In this document: piece after piece, positions 20,188-32,876 of the stretch
How positions within the stretch are numbered: position 1 is the first letter of the stretch
Layout: each line of letters opens with the position of its first letter
NCBI GenBank assembly: GCA_016872675.1
Contig: VGZG01000032.1
Coordinates: 1 to 33,642 of the forward strand
DNA: 33,642 bases
Direction: 5' to 3'
Source of the DNA: Planctomycetota bacterium
GTDB lineage: Bacteria > Planctomycetota > UBA1135 > UBA2386
Position numbers and translations under genes: made by a program
The notes under the pieces: model-generated
Told to the model about the DNA's origin: nothing
The model's input: the letters and a program-made list of their open reading frames with translations, nothing else
The model's database searches: none

Positions 20188-20519
20188 GGCTGCTCGTAGT
20201 TGCCATGGACTAGCGCCGGACTTCGGCCGTCGCCCGCGGCAACTGGCGCCGCGGCCCGACGCCGTGCGGGCGCGGGTGCGCGGTCTCGACCTGACGCTGC
20301 ATGCGGCCGCCGGCGTGCTGCGCGAGGTCGCCTACCGCGACTCGGCGGGGGGCCGGGTCGCCATCGAGCTGTTGGCGCCACCCCCCGATCCCGTGGGTCC
20401 GCCGTCGCCGGCGCTGCAGCTCGACGAGGACACCGCCGGCGTCGAGCGCCGGCCCAAGCCCGTGGGCAAGTGCGCGGCGCCGCCGCCTTCGCGGTTGCAG
20501 GAACTTGTCGTTTCGACGG

Positions 20520-20547
20520 TTGCAGTCTGCGCCGAGCTGCCTAGGAT
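20520..20547 (+). promoter_or_regulatory. Candidate promoter of the LysM protein gene
   Basis: TTGCAG (20520-20525), 16 bp, TAGGAT (20542-20547). The -10 keeps TA..AT and the -35 keeps TTG. The leader would be about 110 nt and ends in a strong GGGAGG (20655-20660) before the ATG at 20666. The nonamer CGGTTGCAG that includes the -35 is repeated 25 bp upstream (20492-20500 and 20517-20525). Confidence 0.35.
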
Positions 20548-20553
20548 CTCCGC

Positions 20554-20589
20554 CGTCGTCGGGCGGTCATCCCGGCGTCGTCGGGCGGT
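20554..20589 (+). repeat. 14-bp direct repeat, 22-bp period, in the LysM gene leader
   Basis: CGTCGTCGGGCGGT occurs at 20554-20567 and again at 20576-20589 without mismatch. The 22-bp period is close to two helical turns, which suits two protein subunits on one DNA face. The repeat could equally be a chance duplication in GC-rich DNA. Confidence 0.5.
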
Positions 20590-20665
20590 TGTGCGCGATC
20601 CTCGTCACGGCGCGCGCTTCGCCCCTTGCGCTGCAACTCGATGCCTCGGGTTGCGGGAGGGTGTT

Positions 20666-21547
20666 ATGAAGCAGAACGAGCGTTGGTTGGTCTATGCCGT
20701 CTCGGGGTTCCTCAGCCTGATCCTCGTCGTTGCGGTCGTCTTCCGGCCGAAATCGGGCGCGGGCAACGCCGCTATGACGCCGGGTCTCGCGCAGATCCTC
20801 AATCAGGAAGTCGCCGTCAGGGACGCCGACGCGCCGAAGCCGGCGGCCGACGACAAGACGGCGGCCGACGCTTCGCTGCCCGGCGTGCCATCGCCGAGCG
20901 ACGTCGCGCCGCAGCCGCTGTCGGCGCCAGCGCCGAAGCCGATGGTCGCCGCCGACCTCGTTGCGCAGCAACTCGGCATGTCGCACCGCGACCGCAACGT
21001 GCGCTTCGTGCGCGCCAAGCCCAATGACTCGGTCGAGGGCCTCGTGCGCCGCTGGTGCGGCGCGCGCGACCCGTACCTCGCCGAGACGAAGAGCCTCAAC
21101 GAAGAACTCGTCGTGCTCCGCGTCGGCCAGGAGATCGCGGTGCCTTGGGTCGACGACGAGGTGCTCGTCGCGGCGATCGAGGCGAGCAAGCCGAAGGCGC
21201 TGACCGCCGAACTGCCGGCGACGCCGGGCGCGGCGCCGGCCAACGGCCAGGCGGCCCCGAGCTTCGCCACGCCGGCGCCGGCGGCCATCACTAGCGAGAA
21301 CAACATCACTAACGAGAACAAGGCGCCCAGCGCTGGCAGCAGCAGTGGCGTCGCCATCGCCGTCGCCGCTGGCACGAGCTACACGGTCAAGGCCGGTGAC
21401 TCGCTGTGGCGGATCGCCGAGCGCACCTACGGCCGCAAGAACGCCAACAAGATGGTCGCCGCGATCAAGCAGGCCAACCCGGGCCTCGGCGACGGCGTGC
21501 GCGAGGGCCAGAAGCTCGTGCTGCCGCAGGAACCAAAGGCCAACTGA
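20666..21547 (+). CDS. Membrane-anchored LysM-domain protein
   Basis: 293 residues. The ATG at 20666 follows GGGAGG at five bases' distance and opens a signal anchor (residues 7-26), so this start is preferred over the longer open frame. A Pro/Ala/Asp-rich linker (about 50-95) leads to a degenerate LysM-like segment (about 112-161, ending RVGQEIAVPWV). A second linker carries a short Asn/Glu repeat (SENNITNENK near 210-219). The C-terminal LysM domain (239-287: YTVKAGDSLWRIAERTYG through GQKLVLP) is canonical. LysM binds N-acetylglucosamine-containing glycans, so the protein probably sits in the inner membrane and reaches into the peptidoglycan or S-layer space. No catalytic domain is visible. 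Confidence 0.85.
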   Translation: MKQNERWLVYAVSGFLSLILVVAVVFRPKSGAGNAAMTPGLAQILNQEVAVRDADAPKPAADDKTAADASLPGVPSPSDVAPQPLSAPAPKPMVAADLVAQQLGMSHRDRNVRFVRAKPNDSVEGLVRRWCGARDPYLAETKSLNEELVVLRVGQEIAVPWVDDEVLVAAIEASKPKALTAELPATPGAAPANGQAAPSFATPAPAAITSENNITNENKAPSAGSSSGVAIAVAAGTSYTVKAGDSLWRIAERTYGRKNANKMVAAIKQANPGLGDGVREGQKLVLPQEPKAN

Positions 21548-21602: not shown

Positions 21603-22967
21603 TCATTTCAGGCCGTAGCGCTCGAGCTTCTTGTAGAGATTGCTGCGCATCAGGTCGATGCGCTCGGCGGTGCGCTTGATGTTGCCGCCAAACTCGAGCA
21701 ACTTGCGGCGCAGGAATTCCTTCTCGGTCGCGGCGCGGAAGTCCTCGAGGCGCTCGAAGGCGAACCAGTCCGTGCCGCCGGCGTCGCGCGCGGGCGCCGG
21801 CGTTAGCGCCGTCTGCAGGTCGGCGCAGCCGATCTCCTCGCCATCGGCGAGCGCCGCGGCGGCTTCGACGACGTTGCGCAGTTGGCGGACGTTGCCCGGC
21901 CATGGCTGCGCCTGCAGCCAGCCGATCGCGTCGGCGTGCAGGCGCCGCGGCGGCAGCCCGTGGCGGGCGCGCGCGCCGGCGAGGAAGTGCAGCGCCAGCG
22001 GGCCAATGTCGTCGCGGCGGTCGCGCAGCGCCGGCAGATGCACGCGCACGCCGTGCAGCCGGTAGTAGAGGTCTTCGCGGAACGCCTCCGCCGCGACCAA
22101 CGCAGCGAGGTCCTGGTTGGTCGCCGCGACGATGCGGACGTCGACGGCGATCTCCTTGGCGCCGCCCAGTCGCTGCACACGTCGCTCCTGCAACACGCGC
22201 AGCAGCTTGGCCTGCATCGGCAGCGGCATGTCGCCGACCTCGTCGAGGAACAGCGTGCCGCCGTGCGCCTGCTCGAAGGCGCCGGCGTGCGCGGCGAGCG
22301 CGCCGGTGAAGGCGCCGCGTTCGTGGCCGAAGAGCTCGCTCTCGACGAGATCGTCGGGGATCGCGGCGCAGTTGCGCGCCACGAACGGACCGTCGCATCG
22401 CCGGCTCTGCAGGTGCAGCTGCCGCACCGCCAATTCCTTGCCGACGCCGTTTTCGCCGGTGACCAGCGCGATGACGTCGGTGGGGGCGATCTTGGCGATC
22501 GTCGCGCGCGCCTGTTGCATCGCGGCGCTGTCGCCGAGCAGCGCATGGTCGCGGGCCAACGCCTGCCGCAGGGCGGCGTTCTCACGGGCGAGGCGGCTGG
22601 CGGCGAGCGCGTTCTGCAGCGACAGCGCCAGCCGGTCCTTGCCGAAGGGCTTCTGCAGGAAGTCGTAGGCGCCGCGGCGGACGGCCAGCACCGCGGTCTC
22701 GAGGTCGCCGTGGCCGCTGATCATCACCACCGGCAGTTCCGGGCGGGCCTCCTTGGCCTTGGCGAGCACCTCCAGGCCGTCCATGCCGGGCAACTTGACG
22801 TCCAGCACCAGCAGGTCGACGGCGGGGTCGAGCGCCATCTGCAGGCCGGACGGCCCGTCGGGGGCCTCGCGGGCCAGATAGCCGTCGAAGGTCAGCTGGA
22901 AGACGAGTTCCTCGCGGACGGCGCGGTGGTCGTCGACGATCAGGATGACGGCGGGGGCGGTCGGCAT
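21603..22967 (-). CDS. NtrC-family sigma-54-dependent response regulator (NtrX-like)
   Basis: 454 residues. The receiver domain (1-120) has the acidic pair Asp12-Asp13, phosphoacceptor Asp56 (LVLDVKLPG) and Lys106 (LQKPF). The AAA+ domain (about 145-380) has Walker A GENGVGKE (171-178), the sigma-54 contact loop GAFTGA (218-223), Walker B LFLDE (239-243), and REDLYYRL and PWPGNVRQLRN further on. The C-terminal Fis-type helix-turn-helix ends in RSNLYKKLERYGLK, the pattern typical of NtrX. No sensor kinase is adjacent, so it is an orphan in this window. It is divergent from the exported HEAT-repeat gene, 240 bp apart, which makes that gene a possible target (inference). No good Shine-Dalgarno precedes the ATG. 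Confidence 0.93.
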   Translation of the reverse strand: MPTAPAVILIVDDHRAVREELVFQLTFDGYLAREAPDGPSGLQMALDPAVDLLVLDVKLPGMDGLEVLAKAKEARPELPVVMISGHGDLETAVLAVRRGAYDFLQKPFGKDRLALSLQNALAASRLARENAALRQALARDHALLGDSAAMQQARATIAKIAPTDVIALVTGENGVGKELAVRQLHLQSRRCDGPFVARNCAAIPDDLVESELFGHERGAFTGALAAHAGAFEQAHGGTLFLDEVGDMPLPMQAKLLRVLQERRVQRLGGAKEIAVDVRIVAATNQDLAALVAAEAFREDLYYRLHGVRVHLPALRDRRDDIGPLALHFLAGARARHGLPPRRLHADAIGWLQAQPWPGNVRQLRNVVEAAAALADGEEIGCADLQTALTPAPARDAGGTDWFAFERLEDFRAATEKEFLRRKLLEFGGNIKRTAERIDLMRSNLYKKLERYGLK

Positions 22968-23207: not shown

Positions 23208-25331
23208 ATGGCTCGCTCCCTCTCCCAATCCCTGCTCGCGGTGGCCGTCGCCGCGGTCATCGGTGGCGCCGCGCTGGCGCAGGATACGCCGCTGCAGGAG
23301 GCCGCCACGCTGCTCCGCCTGAACCAGAAGGAGGAGGCGACCGCGAAGCTGCGCGAGATCCTTGCTGGCGATCCGTCGAACGCGGACGCGATGCAGATGT
23401 ACCGCTCGATCTCGCAGGACGAGTGGTACCTGCTGATGACGCAGAAGGACGCCGACGGCAACCCAGGCGAGATCCAGAAGATCGCCATCGCGATCCTCGA
23501 CCGCGCCAAGGCCGAGAAGAAGGTCCGTTCGCGCGACGGCGCTGCGATTGACGGCCTCGTCGCCACGGCCACGGCCAAGGACAGCGACTACGGCGCCCGC
23601 CAGTCGGCGGTCAACTCGCTGGTCGCGGAGCACGGTGAGTTCGCCGTGCCGGCGCTGGTCGCCAAGCTCGGCAACAACGACGACGCCGATGGCCAGATCC
23701 AAGCCGTCGCCGCGCTGTCGCAATTGCGCTCGCACGCCGTCTTGCCGCTGCTCGCCGCGCTCGGCAGCAGCAACCTCGAGGTCGTGCAGAACGCCGCCGC
23801 GGCGCTCAAGATGATTGGCGACGACCGCGCGACGCCGGCGATGCTGCATCTCAAGAACGACGAGCGCGCCAGCGTCCGTGACATCGCCACCAAGTTCGTC
23901 GCCCAAAAGGGCGGCGGCGGCTCGGCCGTCGACGGCTACCTGGCGCAGGCTGGCCAATATCTCAAGGGCAACGTCGCCGCTGGCGCCTGGAGCGACGTCG
24001 TCTGGTCGCTCGCCGACGACAAACTCGTCGCCGCCGACGTGCCGGCCCTGCTGTACCCGGCCGAACTGGCCAAGGGCTGCGCCATGGCCGCCCTGCGCAT
24101 CGCCCCGTCGAACGCCGAGGCGCGCAGCGCGTTCGCCCAGGCCTGTCTTGCGCAGGCCAATCTCATCGACCAGGGCGTCGCCGGCGGCGACGAGACGATG
24201 AAGGCCCTCGAGGCCACGTCGGCCGACCTGAAGGCGGTCGCCTTGGCGTCGGGCCTCGACGCCGTCCGCGTGGCCCTCGAGGTCGGCATGACGACCGGTC
24301 TCGCGCCGGTCGCCATGGGTGCGATTGGCGCCCTCGCGACGGCCGAGAGCGCCGTGACGGTGGGGCGCTCGACGCTGGCCAACGCCCTGGGCAGCGGCGA
24401 CAAGCGTGTCCGCTACGCCGCGGCCGAGGCCTTGGTCAAGGTGACGAACGGCGTCAACGTGCCGTCGTCGGGCGCGGTGGTCGATGTGCTCGCGGCTGCA
24501 GTCGTCGAGCAGGCGGTCCACACGGTCCACGTCATCGCGCCGCTCAGCGACGCCAACGCCGCGGTGGCCGAACTGTCGGCCAAGCGCGGCTTCGCGGTCA
24601 GCCACAGCGGCGACGCCCTTACGGGCATGGCTGCGTTGCTGACCAACCCGAACGTCGACTTCCTGGTCGTCAGCGACATCCTGCCGGATCGTCTGCCGCA
24701 GGACGTGATCGGCAACGTCAAGAAGGACCCGCGCATGGCGAACACCAAGATCGCCATCCTGTGCAAGGACGAGGATGCCGCCAGGGCCAAGCTCGGTGAC
24801 GGCTACAGTTACATCAAGGCACCGCTGACCGGCGAGGCGCTCGGCGCGGCCGCCGCCGCTGCCCTGGAGGGTTCCAACGATCCGGCCAAGGCGCGCGCGG
24901 AGGCCTATGCGGCCAATGCCAGCGCCAGCCTCGCGGCGCTGGCCGCAGGCGGGGGCGACATCGGCGGCGCCGTGACGGCGCTCGCCGGCCAGCTCGACCG
25001 CGCCGATGCGGTGTCGGTCGCAGCGGCGAAGGCCCTCGGCCTTGGCGGCGGCGAGGGGGCCCTGGCGGCCCTCGCCGGCGCTCTCGCGGGCGGCGGCAGC
25101 ATCGACCTGAAGCGCGCGACGGCGACGGCGATCGGCAACATCCTGGCCCGCGGCGGCAAGTCGGACGAGGCTGTCGCGGCGCTGCGCGCGGCGATGGACA
25201 CGGCGACCGACACCGGTCTGCGCGTCGACCTCGGCGCGGCGCTCGGCAAGGCCGGGCTGTCGCCGGAGGCGACGCTGGAGGCGCTGCAGAAGTACACCCG
25301 CACCGCGTCGACGCCGAAGTCGGAAGGCTGA
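23208..25331 (+). CDS. Exported HEAT-repeat protein with an embedded receiver-like domain
   Basis: 707 residues. The start is fixed by AAGGAG nine bases upstream and by a clear signal peptide cut after AALA (about residue 24). A TPR-like pair of helices follows (LQEAATLLRLNQKEEATAKL), then HEAT-type repeats from about residue 110 to 235 and more alpha-helical repeats to 440 (for example VRYAAAEALVKVTNGVNVP). Residues about 440-552 have the alternating strand/helix pattern of a CheY receiver: VHVIAPLSDAN, LSAKRGFAVSHSGDAL, PNVDFLVVSDILPDRLPQDV, NTKIAILCK, YSYIKAPL. The acidic pair is missing. Asp490 sits near the phospho-Asp position but one residue out of register, and Lys537 near the conserved Lys. 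It ends with Gly/Ala-rich repeats. It is probably a periplasmic scaffold; its function is unknown. Confidence 0.85.
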   Translation: MARSLSQSLLAVAVAAVIGGAALAQDTPLQEAATLLRLNQKEEATAKLREILAGDPSNADAMQMYRSISQDEWYLLMTQKDADGNPGEIQKIAIAILDRAKAEKKVRSRDGAAIDGLVATATAKDSDYGARQSAVNSLVAEHGEFAVPALVAKLGNNDDADGQIQAVAALSQLRSHAVLPLLAALGSSNLEVVQNAAAALKMIGDDRATPAMLHLKNDERASVRDIATKFVAQKGGGGSAVDGYLAQAGQYLKGNVAAGAWSDVVWSLADDKLVAADVPALLYPAELAKGCAMAALRIAPSNAEARSAFAQACLAQANLIDQGVAGGDETMKALEATSADLKAVALASGLDAVRVALEVGMTTGLAPVAMGAIGALATAESAVTVGRSTLANALGSGDKRVRYAAAEALVKVTNGVNVPSSGAVVDVLAAAVVEQAVHTVHVIAPLSDANAAVAELSAKRGFAVSHSGDALTGMAALLTNPNVDFLVVSDILPDRLPQDVIGNVKKDPRMANTKIAILCKDEDAARAKLGDGYSYIKAPLTGEALGAAAAAALEGSNDPAKARAEAYAANASASLAALAAGGGDIGGAVTALAGQLDRADAVSVAAAKALGLGGGEGALAALAGALAGGGSIDLKRATATAIGNILARGGKSDEAVAALRAAMDTATDTGLRVDLGAALGKAGLSPEATLEALQKYTRTASTPKSEG

Positions 25332-28437: not shown

Positions 28438-30444
28438 TCACTTGCCGCTGCCGGGGGCGGCTGCCGCCGGCAGGCGCCACGGCTTGTCGGCGCTTGGCGC
28501 GTCGCGGTCGAGCGTGACATGCATCTGGACGTCGGCGAACTTCTTGCCGTTGCCTAGCGTCAGTGGCGTGCCGAAGCGCACCTTGACGAGGGCCTTGCCC
28601 TTGTCGTTGGCCTCGAGCGACATGCTCTGGATCGCCTCCGGTGTGGCCGCCGGCTTGGCGTTCGGCACCGGCCACGCGGCGATGATCTTGCCCTCGTTGC
28701 CGTGCAGCAGGAACACGTCCTCGGTGATCGGGACCTCACGGCCGTCGATGCGCAGGAACTTCAGGTTGCCGTTGGCGGCTTCCTTGCTCAATACCTCCTC
28801 GTCGGTGACGCCAAAGCGGCTGACGATGTCGCGCCACGGCTTCTTCTTGTCCTTCTTCTTGTCGTCCTCCTTCTTGTCGTCCTCGCCCTCGGGCTTGTCG
28901 GCGGGCTTGTTCTTCTGCGCGGCGACGAGCTCCTTGTGGCCGGCCTTGACGGCCTCGACCAGCTCGCGCGGCGCGCCGGCCTTGCGGTAGAGCACGGAGT
29001 ACAGGCCGGCCGGGGCCGCCGGGACGGCCAGCGGCGAGGTCGTCATCAGCGCGCCGAGCAGCATCGGCGTCGTCTGGCTCTGCTCGAGCAGCTTGCCGAC
29101 TTCGGGGCTCTTGTCCTTCGACAGGAAGTTGACCGGCGCGAACGTGATCGTCGCGTAGCTGGTCGGGAAACCGTTGGTGTCGAGCTCGTAGCGCTCGGCG
29201 CCGACCTGCGACCCGAGGTCGACCTGTTGGTCGACGGCGAAGGGGTTCTTGTTGAACGTGCCGCGCAGCGCCGAGTACAGCGCGTCGTAGCCCGGCTTCA
29301 TGCTCTTGGCGAGGCGGAAGCCGACGCTCTCGAGCACGTCGACCGTCTGCATCGGCGCGCGCGCGTCGATCAGCAGTTGGATCGGCTCGTTGCTCGCCAG
29401 GAAGCTGCCGCCCTTGGCGAGCACGTTCTCGTCCTTCCACGCCGGCGGCGACTTGAGCGCCATGGCAGCCTTGTCCTTCATCAGGCTCTTCCACTCGGCT
29501 TCGAACGCGTCGCGGCCGTTGATCGGCTGGAACCCCTGCTCGCCGAGCAGCTGCCAGACCTGGCCGAACATGTCCATGTGGCCGAAGGCGCCCGCCGCCG
29601 TCGCGACGGTGCCGATCGGCTTGTTCGCCTTGTCGGCCGACGAAGCGAGGCGCAGGTCCTTCAGCAACTGCTCGGTGTAGCGGTCGGTGGCGGGGTCGTC
29701 GGCCTTGGCCGTCGGCCAGGTCGCCTTGCCGTCGCCGCGCGCGGCGCGCGTCCACTCGGCTTCGTTCGGCAAGCGCATGCCCAGCCACGCGGCGAAGTCG
29801 TTCGCGGCGCGCCAGCTGACGAAGGTCACCGGCTGGTCGCCGATCGACTTGCCCTTGTCGTCGCAGACCTTGTACGGCAGCTCGCCGCCGTAGCGGTCCC
29901 AGAAGTTGAGCGGGCCCTCATTGTCCTTCGGGAACTCCTTGTTGATCTGCTCGATCTTGGCGTTGTAGTCATCGCTGCGGCCGTAGCGCCACCAGTGGAA
30001 CGGCGCGTGGTACTTGCCGTCCTTACGACGCGCGGCGACGAACGCTTCGTACTGCGCGTTGGTGACCGGGAACTTGCCAAGCAAGAACGCCGGTACCTCG
30101 GTCTTCTTGCGGCCGAGGATCGACGTCGAGCGGCGCATCGCCGTGTTGAGCACCGCTGGGGCGATCCTGAGCGCGTTCTCCGGCTTCGTCGGCATGGCCA
30201 CCTGGCTGGCGGCCTGCACGAGGGTCGCGGCGTCGAGGCCCATCTCGACAATGCCGCCGGGCACCGTCAGCAAGAACGACGGCAAGCCGTCGGTGTTCTG
30301 GCCGTCGAGCCTGACGCCGTTCAACGTCGCCGAAGCGGGCGCTGCGGCGGCTGCCGACTTGTTGGCCGCGGCGCCTTGGGCGCCGGCGGACGCGATCAGG
30401 GTCAGGAACACGAGCGCGGGCGCTCGCAGCGAAGAGGGGTTCAT
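28438..30444 (-). CDS. Exported FGE-sulfatase (SUMF1)-domain protein, probably non-catalytic
   Basis: 668 residues with a signal peptide cut near ASAGA-Q (about residue 23). The FGE fold is visible: FLLGKFPVTNAQYEAFVAA, QPVTFVSWRAANDFAAWLGM, RLPNEAEWTRAARGDGK, FGHMDMFGQVWQ in place of DMxGNVWEW, AKGGSFLASN and ESVGFRLAK. The segment where formylglycine-generating enzymes have their catalytic Cys pair contains no Cys; the only one visible is in YKVCDDKGK. A non-catalytic binding role is therefore likely. About 270 residues follow the domain, including an Asp/Glu/Lys-rich linker (DKPEGEDDKKEDDKKKDKKK) and a beta-rich end. ATG 30444 is set by the signal peptide; the same frame is open upstream to 31710 but is shadow. 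Confidence 0.82.
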   Translation of the reverse strand: MNPSSLRAPALVFLTLIASAGAQGAAANKSAAAAAPASATLNGVRLDGQNTDGLPSFLLTVPGGIVEMGLDAATLVQAASQVAMPTKPENALRIAPAVLNTAMRRSTSILGRKKTEVPAFLLGKFPVTNAQYEAFVAARRKDGKYHAPFHWWRYGRSDDYNAKIEQINKEFPKDNEGPLNFWDRYGGELPYKVCDDKGKSIGDQPVTFVSWRAANDFAAWLGMRLPNEAEWTRAARGDGKATWPTAKADDPATDRYTEQLLKDLRLASSADKANKPIGTVATAAGAFGHMDMFGQVWQLLGEQGFQPINGRDAFEAEWKSLMKDKAAMALKSPPAWKDENVLAKGGSFLASNEPIQLLIDARAPMQTVDVLESVGFRLAKSMKPGYDALYSALRGTFNKNPFAVDQQVDLGSQVGAERYELDTNGFPTSYATITFAPVNFLSKDKSPEVGKLLEQSQTTPMLLGALMTTSPLAVPAAPAGLYSVLYRKAGAPRELVEAVKAGHKELVAAQKNKPADKPEGEDDKKEDDKKKDKKKPWRDIVSRFGVTDEEVLSKEAANGNLKFLRIDGREVPITEDVFLLHGNEGKIIAAWPVPNAKPAATPEAIQSMSLEANDKGKALVKVRFGTPLTLGNGKKFADVQMHVTLDRDAPSADKPWRLPAAAAPGSGK

Positions 30445-30512
30445 CGTGCGCTGGGAACGGAATCGTCGCTGGTCGCCGCGGAGCGTCGGCAGCCAGAGCA
30501 GAGGGGGTGCGG

Positions 30513-30540
30513 ATCGTAGCCCGCGCCCTCTCAGCCTCAA
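30513..30540 (-). promoter_or_regulatory. Candidate promoter of the FGE-domain gene
   Basis: On the minus strand TTGAGG (30535-30540), 16 bp, TACGAT (30513-30518). Both boxes match four or more consensus positions. The leader to the ATG at 30444 would be about 60 nt. It lies in the 155-bp gap after the HD-GYP gene, so the two minus-strand genes need not be co-transcribed. Confidence 0.5.
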
Positions 30541-30599
30541 CGATTGTCTCATCCGCGTCGCGGCTGCCAACCCCCTGTCGAGCGGCGGTTTGCCGCGGA

Positions 30600-31670
30600 C
30601 TAGAAGAGCAGGCCCTGGCTCGCGGCGAAGAACCGACCGCCCATTTTCTCGAGGCCGTCGGCGACGAGGTGGGCGAGGTCCGGGTCGAAGTGTTTGCCGG
30701 CCTGTTCGCGGAACAGCGCGACGATCTTCTCGACCGGCCAGGCCGGCTTGTAACTGCGCTCTTCCGCCAAGGCGTCGTAGACCTCGGCCAGGATCAGGAT
30801 ACGCCCTGGCAAGGCGACTTCCTCGCCGCGCAGGCCGTTGGGGTAGCCCTTGCCGTCCCAGCGCTCGTGGTGCTGGTAGACCCAGGTGCGGACATCGTCG
30901 TGGCCGTCGAGGCCGGCGAGCACCTCGTAGCCCATCGCCGGGTGGCGCTTGATGACCTCGAACTCGTCGGCGGTCAGGGCGCCCGGCTTCTGCAGGATCT
31001 GGTCGGGGATGCCGATCTTGCCGATGTCGTGCAGCAGGGCGGCGAGGCGCAGCGAGCCGCGGTCCTCTTCCGCCACGCCGCACCGGTGCGCGAGCACGTC
31101 CGTGTAGCCGATGACGCGCGCGGCGTGGCCGCTGGTCGTCGGGTCCTTGATCTCGATCGTGCGCGGCAGCACGGTCGTCAGAACGCAATTGACCGACTCG
31201 AGTTCGGCATTGCGGCGCGCGAGTTCGGTGTCGTGGATCACGCGGCGGCAGGTCGCCAGCAGCGCCTGCGGATCGACCGGCTTCACCACCATGTCGGCGA
31301 CGTTCTTGCGCAGCGCATCCTGGGCGGCGTCGAAGGTGGGGCGGCCGGTCAGGACGACGACCGGCGTGTGCGGTCGGCGTTCGCGCGCGACTTCGGCGAT
31401 CTGCACGCCGAGATCCGACGCGCCAAGGTACAGGTCGGTCAGCACCAACTGGAAGCGCTCGCGGCGCATGGTCGCAGCCGCTTGCGCCAGCGAGGTCGCA
31501 CACGTCACCCGGTAGCCGGCCGATTCGAGGACACGGCGCAGACCGAGCAGCACATCGGCTTCGTCGTCGACGAGCAGCACGCGCTGGCCAGTGTGGGTCT
31601 GACGAGGCAGGTGCGGCAGCGCCGTTGGGGCGCGGTCCGGAGCGGTTTCGAGGCCGTCGGTCGAGGTCAT
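30600..31670 (-). CDS. Response regulator with HD-GYP output domain
   Basis: 356 residues. The receiver (about 29-145) has Asp35-Asp36, phospho-Asp79 (LVLTDLYLG) and Lys130 (VVKPV). The HD-GYP domain (about 165-350) has EIKDPTTSGHA, LLHDIGKIGIPD (His214-Asp215), HHERWDGKGYPNGL (HHE at 267-269, GYP at 275-277) and a C-terminal YDAL motif. HD-GYP proteins hydrolyse cyclic di-GMP or 3'3'-cGAMP, lowering second-messenger levels. The usual ADVYDAL reads AEVYDAL, with Glu296 in place of an Asp likely to bind metal. That is a conservative change that may keep activity. It ends with a TAG codon, showing TAG is a working stop here. ATG 31670 lies before a 28-residue unstructured leader. Confidence 0.93.
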   Translation of the reverse strand: MTSTDGLETAPDRAPTALPHLPRQTHTGQRVLLVDDEADVLLGLRRVLESAGYRVTCATSLAQAAATMRRERFQLVLTDLYLGASDLGVQIAEVARERRPHTPVVVLTGRPTFDAAQDALRKNVADMVVKPVDPQALLATCRRVIHDTELARRNAELESVNCVLTTVLPRTIEIKDPTTSGHAARVIGYTDVLAHRCGVAEEDRGSLRLAALLHDIGKIGIPDQILQKPGALTADEFEVIKRHPAMGYEVLAGLDGHDDVRTWVYQHHERWDGKGYPNGLRGEEVALPGRILILAEVYDALAEERSYKPAWPVEKIVALFREQAGKHFDPDLAHLVADGLEKMGGRFFAASQGLLF

Positions 31671-31695
31671 TGCATCTGCCGCGGCGCATGCCGCA

Positions 31696-31728
31696 GCCTC
31701 CCAAGCCCACCTCCCGCAGTTGGGAGGC
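31696..31728. repeat. 9-bp inverted repeat in the divergent HD-GYP/rluA intergenic region
   Basis: GCCTCCCAA (31696-31704) and TTGGGAGGC (31720-31728) are perfect complements with a 15-bp spacer. A further CTCCC in the spacer could pair competitively with the right arm. It sits 26 bases before the HD-GYP start codon, in its leader or operator region. A second pair, GTTGCA (31739-31744) and TGCAAC (31768-31773), follows. Hairpin or operator function is undecided. Confidence 0.5.
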
Positions 31729-31869
31729 GTATCGCTAGGTTGCAAGGTGCCGGTCGGTGCGCCAACCTGCAACTTCCTTCCGTGGAATTGTGGAAAAGGG
31801 TCCAAGCTGGGCGATCCGCCACGGTTGTTTTCGACCCGTCGCGCATCGGCCCGCCGAGCGGCGCGACTA

Positions 31870-31898
31870 TTTCGCCGGCTCGCGTCGGCGGCTAAGCA
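31870..31898 (+). promoter_or_regulatory. Candidate leaderless promoter of the rluA-family gene
   Basis: TTTCGC (31870-31875), 17 bp, TAAGCA (31893-31898), six bases to the ATG at 31905. The boxes are weak, but the geometry repeats that of hutH. No Shine-Dalgarno is present; AGG at 31898-31900 is too close. Confidence 0.35.
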
Positions 31899-31904
31899 GG
31901 GCGC

Positions 31905-32876
31905 ATGCTGCCGACCTTCCTGCGCGTGGCGACCGCGAGCGACCTCGGCCAGCGCGTCGACGCGTTCCTCGCCGCCCAGCCGGAAGTGGGCTCGCGGTCG
32001 GCGGCGCGGCGGTTGCTCGACGCGGGGCTGGTCACCGTTTCCGGCATGCGCGCTAAGCCGGCGACCACGCTGGTCGTCGGCGATGAGGTCGCCTTCCGCG
32101 TGCTCGTCGACGCGCTGCGCGACCCGTTGGCGCCCGACCTGCCGTTGCCCGAGGTGCGCGTCCTGTTCGACGACGCGGCGGTGTGCGTCATCGACAAGCC
32201 CGCCGGACTCGCCGCGCATCCGCCCGAGGATCCGTCGGTGGTGGCGCACACGGTGGCGAGCTGGGCGCGCGCGCGCCTGGGCGACCTGCCGAGTCCGCCC
32301 GACGTCGATCGGCCCGGCATCGTGCACCGGCTCGACCGCGACACCACCGGCGTGATGGTCGTCGCCAAGACCGCGGTCGCGATGGAAGCGCTGCGGCAGC
32401 AGTGGAAGGACCGCCTCGTCGAGAAGGAGTACCGCTGCGTCGTCTACGGCGAGCCGCGCTTCCAGAGCGATTGGATCGAGCGCGCGATCGCGCCCGACCC
32501 GCGCCACCCCGACCGCATGACCACCGTCGAAGAAGGCGGCCGCGAGTCGTCGACGTACTACGAAGTGGTCGAGCGCTTCGGCGGCTTCGCGCACGTGCGC
32601 TGCCAGCCGAAGACCGGCCGCACGCACCAGATCCGCGTGCACATGACCGCGATCGGGCACTCGCTCGTCGGCGACAAGGTCTACCGCTCGGCCAAGCGGC
32701 AGCACGACCGCCTGCCGCCGGGCGCGCCGGCAATGGCGCGACAGGCGCTGCACGCGCAGTCGCTCGCGTTCACGCATCCGGTGACGCAAGAACGGCTGCG
32801 CCTCGAGGCGCCCTTGCCCGAGGATATGCAGCGGTTGCTCGCCTGGCTGCGCGCGCAGGCTGGCGCCGATCGCTGA
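31905..32876 (+). CDS. RluA-family pseudouridine synthase (RluD-like)
   Basis: 323 residues. An N-terminal S4 RNA-binding domain (about 15-75, LGQRVDAFLAAQPEVGSRSA and DAGLVTVSGMRAK) precedes the catalytic domain. The catalytic motif GIVHRLDRDTTGVMVVAK holds the conserved Asp (in RLDRDT). KTGRTHQIRVHM and the GDKVY motif are also family hallmarks. RluC/RluD-type enzymes convert uridines in 23S rRNA to pseudouridine during ribosome assembly. RluD is favoured because of the S4 domain and the length, but RluC-like specificity cannot be excluded. It is divergent from the HD-GYP gene. Confidence 0.93.
   Translation: MLPTFLRVATASDLGQRVDAFLAAQPEVGSRSAARRLLDAGLVTVSGMRAKPATTLVVGDEVAFRVLVDALRDPLAPDLPLPEVRVLFDDAAVCVIDKPAGLAAHPPEDPSVVAHTVASWARARLGDLPSPPDVDRPGIVHRLDRDTTGVMVVAKTAVAMEALRQQWKDRLVEKEYRCVVYGEPRFQSDWIERAIAPDPRHPDRMTTVEEGGRESSTYYEVVERFGGFAHVRCQPKTGRTHQIRVHMTAIGHSLVGDKVYRSAKRQHDRLPPGAPAMARQALHAQSLAFTHPVTQERLRLEAPLPEDMQRLLAWLRAQAGADR

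Follow-up and report, generated by a model that had tools for sequence, protein, structure and literature searches.

A protein of a Planctomycetota bacterium (GTDB lineage Bacteria; Planctomycetota; UBA1135; UBA2386), predicted to be exported, carries a degenerate receiver domain between two stretches of a HEAT-repeat solenoid. It is encoded by a 707-residue open reading frame at positions 23208-25331 of the plus strand (ATG start, stop codon included) in the window, the whole stretch of 33,642 nucleotides analyzed here (contig VGZG01000032.1), and its N-terminus reads MARSLSQSLLAVAVAAVIGGAALA/QD, the slash marking the predicted cleavage site. Receivers are usually regarded as working with kinases in the cytoplasm. 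One that is retained in the cell envelope across most of a phylum, as predicted here, cannot depend on kinase phosphorylation in the ordinary manner. The protein is moderately likely to be a periplasmic scaffold tied to cell-wall turnover, in which the pseudo-receiver acts as a docking module independent of phosphorylation.

The full-length AlphaFold2 model, computed from a 64-row family alignment, has a mean pLDDT of 92.3 and a pTM of 0.86 and is laid out as a TPR-like start, a HEAT solenoid containing a hairpin, a receiver and further HEAT helices. The TPR-like helices span residues 28-67 (23289-23408; this and all other features of the protein lie on the plus strand), and the family profile matches TPR consensus proteins over residues 33-66. 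The first solenoid (residues 88-432; 23469-24503) is helical in the model and includes a HEAT_2 match at residues 147-227 (E=8.8e-13). HEAT_2 scores 48.8 bits in the window protein against a curated cut-off of 27.7, which places it among HEAT-repeat proteins, and the match recurs in all 64 family members. The second solenoid (residues 559-696; 24882-25295), likewise drawn from model helices, follows directly after residue 435 in relatives that have no receiver. Within the first solenoid, strands 264-269 and 272-277 form a beta-hairpin (residues 264-277; 23997-24038). Asp205 of the solenoid and Trp266 of the hairpin are both invariant over the 64 family rows, and the hairpin region around Trp266 may be where the real functional core lies.

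The receiver domain (residues 438-552; 24519-24863) consists of five beta-alpha units, in which strands 438-443, 462-467, 485-489, 514-519 and 534-537 alternate with helices 446-457, 470-479, 497-506, 522-529 and 542-552. A preliminary description of the window had recognized the fold from strand and helix order and from the motifs DFLVVSDILPD and YIKAPL, which are indeed present at residues 484-494 and 535-540. Its placement of the domain at 24528-24866 (residues 441-553) was sound, with boundaries that prove slightly wider. The predicted structure and a search of known folds both return a receiver. The segment has a pLDDT of mostly about 90-95 per block in the full-length model, and the domain adopts the same fold when predicted in isolation (pLDDT 84.6). 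Searched against the PDB with Foldseek, the isolated domain has only receivers among its top 50 matches, including CheY, PhoB, DivK and FrzS (for example CheY 1udr, E=1.1e-6; 4hnr, TM 0.81/0.84; FrzS 2i6f). The same search with the full-length model is dominated by HEAT/ARM proteins and is uninformative on the receiver domain.

The domain is homologous to receivers, beyond likeness of fold, because the relationship is also recovered by sequence alone: a profile of 80 family domains matches receivers of known structure (E=2.5e-14), PleD and FrzS ranking among its best hits, and 38 of the 80 member domains individually match Pfam Response_reg (PF00072). The window's own domain yields nothing above cut-off in Pfam or NCBIfam. 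Pfam is blank over this segment of 120 residues, and in NCBIfam the sole, weak hint of a receiver is EpsW (E=0.013).

The phosphorylation chemistry has been lost. The five catalytic positions of the window protein are occupied by Ala444, Pro445, Ser489, Cys519 and Lys537, so that the set expected of a phosphorylatable receiver (an acidic pair, the phospho-Asp, Thr/Ser and Lys) is incomplete. As the preliminary description had noted, the N-terminal acidic pair is absent, replaced by Ala444 and Pro445; the central Asp is one residue out of register, with Ser489 aligned to CheY Asp57 and Asp490 next to it (24672-24677, from the profile alignment to receivers); and Lys537 (24816-24818) aligns with CheY Lys109. 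The degeneration extends to the 93 receiver-bearing homologues. The phospho-Asp column is Asp in four of them, with N, S, A, R, Q and other residues found there; an acidic residue fills the second position of the pair in 12, and 11 have the Lys. None retains more than three of the five catalytic residues, which bears out the label of pseudo-receiver given at the outset. Some distant members have domain starts resembling VIDDNDD, as expected if the family descended from an active receiver. The domain agrees with the residue-loss part of the definition of pseudo-receivers (PsR) in a 2025 review, whose sequence set is restricted to domains recognized by PF00072 (PMC12632262).

Asp490 might be thought to take the phosphoryl group in place of the residue at the D57 position, making this an active receiver in an odd register, and Asp or Glu is common in its column (56/86). 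This is almost certainly not the case, since the window protein has no acidic pair, the Asp490 column varies among homologues and the kinases concerned would be out of reach for an exported domain: in two-component systems, receivers are phosphorylated by cytoplasmic kinases that use ATP.

Export is predicted from a signal peptide at residues 1-24 (23208-23279) that ends in an A-L-A/Q cleavage motif, is kept across homologues and appears in the AlphaFold2 model as a low-pLDDT helix (residues 5-23). The preliminary description had called this signal peptide clear, and homologues keep one: a simple n- and h-region rule (not SignalP) predicts it in 84 of 86. The two exceptions both have a visible signal-like sequence, one being explained by start-codon choice (L079) and the other by a borderline charge (L085). 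Applied to control families, the rule is positive for 1/22 NtrC, 0/15 AnmK and, falsely, 14/15 PyrG proteins. Because of the PyrG misfire, the case for export also draws on the n/h/c pattern and its A-x-A site, both conserved. It is these false positives, and the prediction of the signal by a sequence rule only, that would favor a cytoplasmic protein whose N-terminal hydrophobic stretch is no working signal peptide. Such a protein is very improbable, given that the classical pattern and A-x-A site are retained while the sequence downstream diverges to about 25% identity, and that one homologue (L074) has a lipobox instead.

The family is single-copy in the window's own genome and is found in 59 of 61 near relatives, including all 29 of good quality, mostly at full length. 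The nearest named record comes from a Phycisphaerales MAG, also Planctomycetota (JADCJE010000097.1, 79% identity). When the window protein alone served as query, the genome collection returned one locus only. With the 64-row family profile (cut-off E<=1e-20), applied to Planctomycetota genomes at least 92% complete, members were found in 193 of 247 genomes and 144 of 170 genera. The earlier suggestion of a lineage-specific family thus holds within the Planctomycetota genomes searched, but the lineage is a wide one. No similar exported receiver was seen in the window's genome when the sequence upstream of 30 of its 32 PF00072 hits was inspected by eye; these 30 belong to response regulators and hybrid kinases, and receivers below the Pfam threshold could escape such a survey.

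In six genomes (L136-L141, for example L136:5108-6874) of families f64, f68 and f88, the receiver is cleanly absent and the exported solenoid halves are joined directly, a natural deletion. These relatives form one clade (support 1.0) nested among receiver-bearing members, and the successive nodes that enclose it have supports of 0.39, 0.87, 0.99, 1.00 and 0.93. On the simplest reading of the tree, the receiver would have been inserted early and lost once later. Since this clade lost the receiver and kept the rest, the domain is not essential everywhere.

Where it is present, the domain is under purifying selection, with dN lower than dS in each of the eight pairs compared (0.125 against 0.349 in the nearest pair). 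Conservation is also uneven. Within the window's family it is highest on the beta3-alpha3-beta4 side of the domain (3.3-3.7 bits, against 2.2-3.0 bits for alpha1-beta2-alpha2); phylum-wide, much of the receiver domain is less conserved than the solenoid core. This weaker conservation, like the clean loss with retention of the solenoid, would suit a purely structural insertion that stabilizes or spaces the solenoid and itself binds no partner. We consider that explanation unlikely, as most lineages by far, very diverged ones included, retain the receiver, with dN below dS and one-sided conservation; a mere spacer should have disappeared more often. The selection and the one-sided conservation count in favor of a docking role.

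The genes around the family were compared over 41 loci of about 20 kb each. In most of the neighborhoods that have an NtrC-type regulator, the window's included, it lies upstream on the opposite strand, often adjoining. In the window this is a divergently transcribed sigma-54 response regulator with a canonical receiver (21603-22967, minus strand; Sigma54_activat E=2e-68, Response_reg E=6e-26). Matches to the sigma-54 promoter pattern are fewer than expected by chance, and the intergenic region that separates the window gene from the NtrC gene has none, which gives no support for direct control by the neighboring regulator. Beyond the NtrC gene lies a gene for a LysM-domain protein (20264-21547, plus strand; E=4.4e-8), syntenic in six other loci; a LysM gene nearby is a trait of the window's family. 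On the other side, the window encodes a protein with an FGE-sulfatase (formylglycine-generating enzyme-like) domain (28441-30699, minus strand; E=6.6e-31) and a response regulator with an HD domain (HD-GYP-like; 30603-32000, minus strand; Response_reg E=1.1e-19).

In many neighborhoods, the family gene directly follows one for AnmK (PF03702; E=6e-84 for L120) that has the same orientation, with PyrG further upstream in many. In some loci the two open frames overlap by 4 bp. In three (L107, L120 and L121) the open frames of AnmK and the homologue meet within 4 bp, which suggests that the anhydro-MurNAc kinase and the envelope protein are encoded in one putative operon there. Several loci have a GH3/NagZ-type gene between or near the two. 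By eye count, 16 of the 25 resolvable genomes that have both genes place AnmK no more than about 4 kb upstream, whereas random placement in a 5-Mb genome would give about 0.04. The linkage was not seen in the more distant lineages among the neighborhoods compared. AnmK and NagZ are normally cytoplasmic and act in the recycling of peptidoglycan sugars; as the protein is exported, the linkage may reflect shared regulation only. A requirement of the protein for AnmK is rejected for the window's lineage, where neither the window's genome nor 10 other good genomes of its family yielded an AnmK gene (0/11) and the protein is kept.

Linkage to AnmK and NagZ, together with the LysM neighbor, could also be taken to mean that the degenerate pocket binds a small envelope ligand, such as a peptidoglycan sugar, and thereby alters the scaffold; some pseudo-receivers do bind ligands (PMC12632262). 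Such a sensor is quite improbable here, the pocket residues (as at the D57 position) varying so freely that one shared ligand is not suggested.

Several known proteins resemble parts of the window protein. FrzS of Myxococcus xanthus (PDB 2gkg, 2i6f), among the best matches by both sequence and fold, likewise has an unphosphorylated receiver fold. In contrast to the window protein, with its export signal and HEAT solenoid, FrzS is cytoplasmic and combines its receiver with a C-terminal coiled coil, and the two do not belong to one family. The second receiver of Caulobacter PleD (sequence match E=3e-14) is also degenerate and serves domain contacts, but PleD, unlike the window protein, is a diguanylate cyclase of the cytoplasm whose first receiver is active. 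Receivers of the CheY/PF00072 type share the fold and the strand and helix order, whereas the window domain has lost the catalytic residues, is exported and interrupts a solenoid. HEAT-repeat proteins (PF13646; alphaRep designs) are like the solenoid part, and the matched HEAT families have no receiver insertion. Pseudo-receivers themselves are already known; exported ones had no prior description in the open-licence literature searched, where no papers on periplasmic receivers or response regulators were found either, an absence that is not proof. The 2025 review of bacterial pseudo-receivers makes no mention of the periplasm, secretion or signal peptides (PMC12632262).

Computation gives the receiver fold and homology, the family-wide loss of catalytic residues, the conserved export signal, the spread through the phylum, the single clean loss of the domain and the gene linkages; we infer a docking module and a link to peptidoglycan turnover or its regulation. 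Sec export would deliver to the envelope a scaffold that begins with a brief TPR segment and continues as two stretches of HEAT solenoid, between which an ancient receiver-fold insertion would sit with its phosphotransfer chemistry lost. This pseudo-receiver would offer a fixed docking surface to another envelope protein, as FrzS does in the cytoplasm, and the solenoid with its invariant Trp266 hairpin may hold other partners. The FrzS pseudo-receiver is reported to bind SgmX through its alpha3-beta4-alpha4 face, a side that the better-conserved beta3-alpha3-beta4 region of the window's family overlaps (PMC12632262). The better-conserved face could also just pack on the protein's own solenoid.

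A broader and distinctly more speculative proposal is that the family represents an ancient, phylum-wide class of exported receivers. The fold of two-component receivers would have reached the envelope at an early stage of this phylum and been stripped of its chemistry, to serve as a docking or sensing element in a scaffold through which peptidoglycan turnover is coupled to the NtrC-type regulator of the adjacent gene. The family offers a clean natural case for what pseudo-receivers do, with the receiver-less clade as a built-in comparison. The linkage to anmK and nagZ points to an uncharacterized envelope protein in the Planctomycetota, whose cell wall is a long-standing subject of debate.
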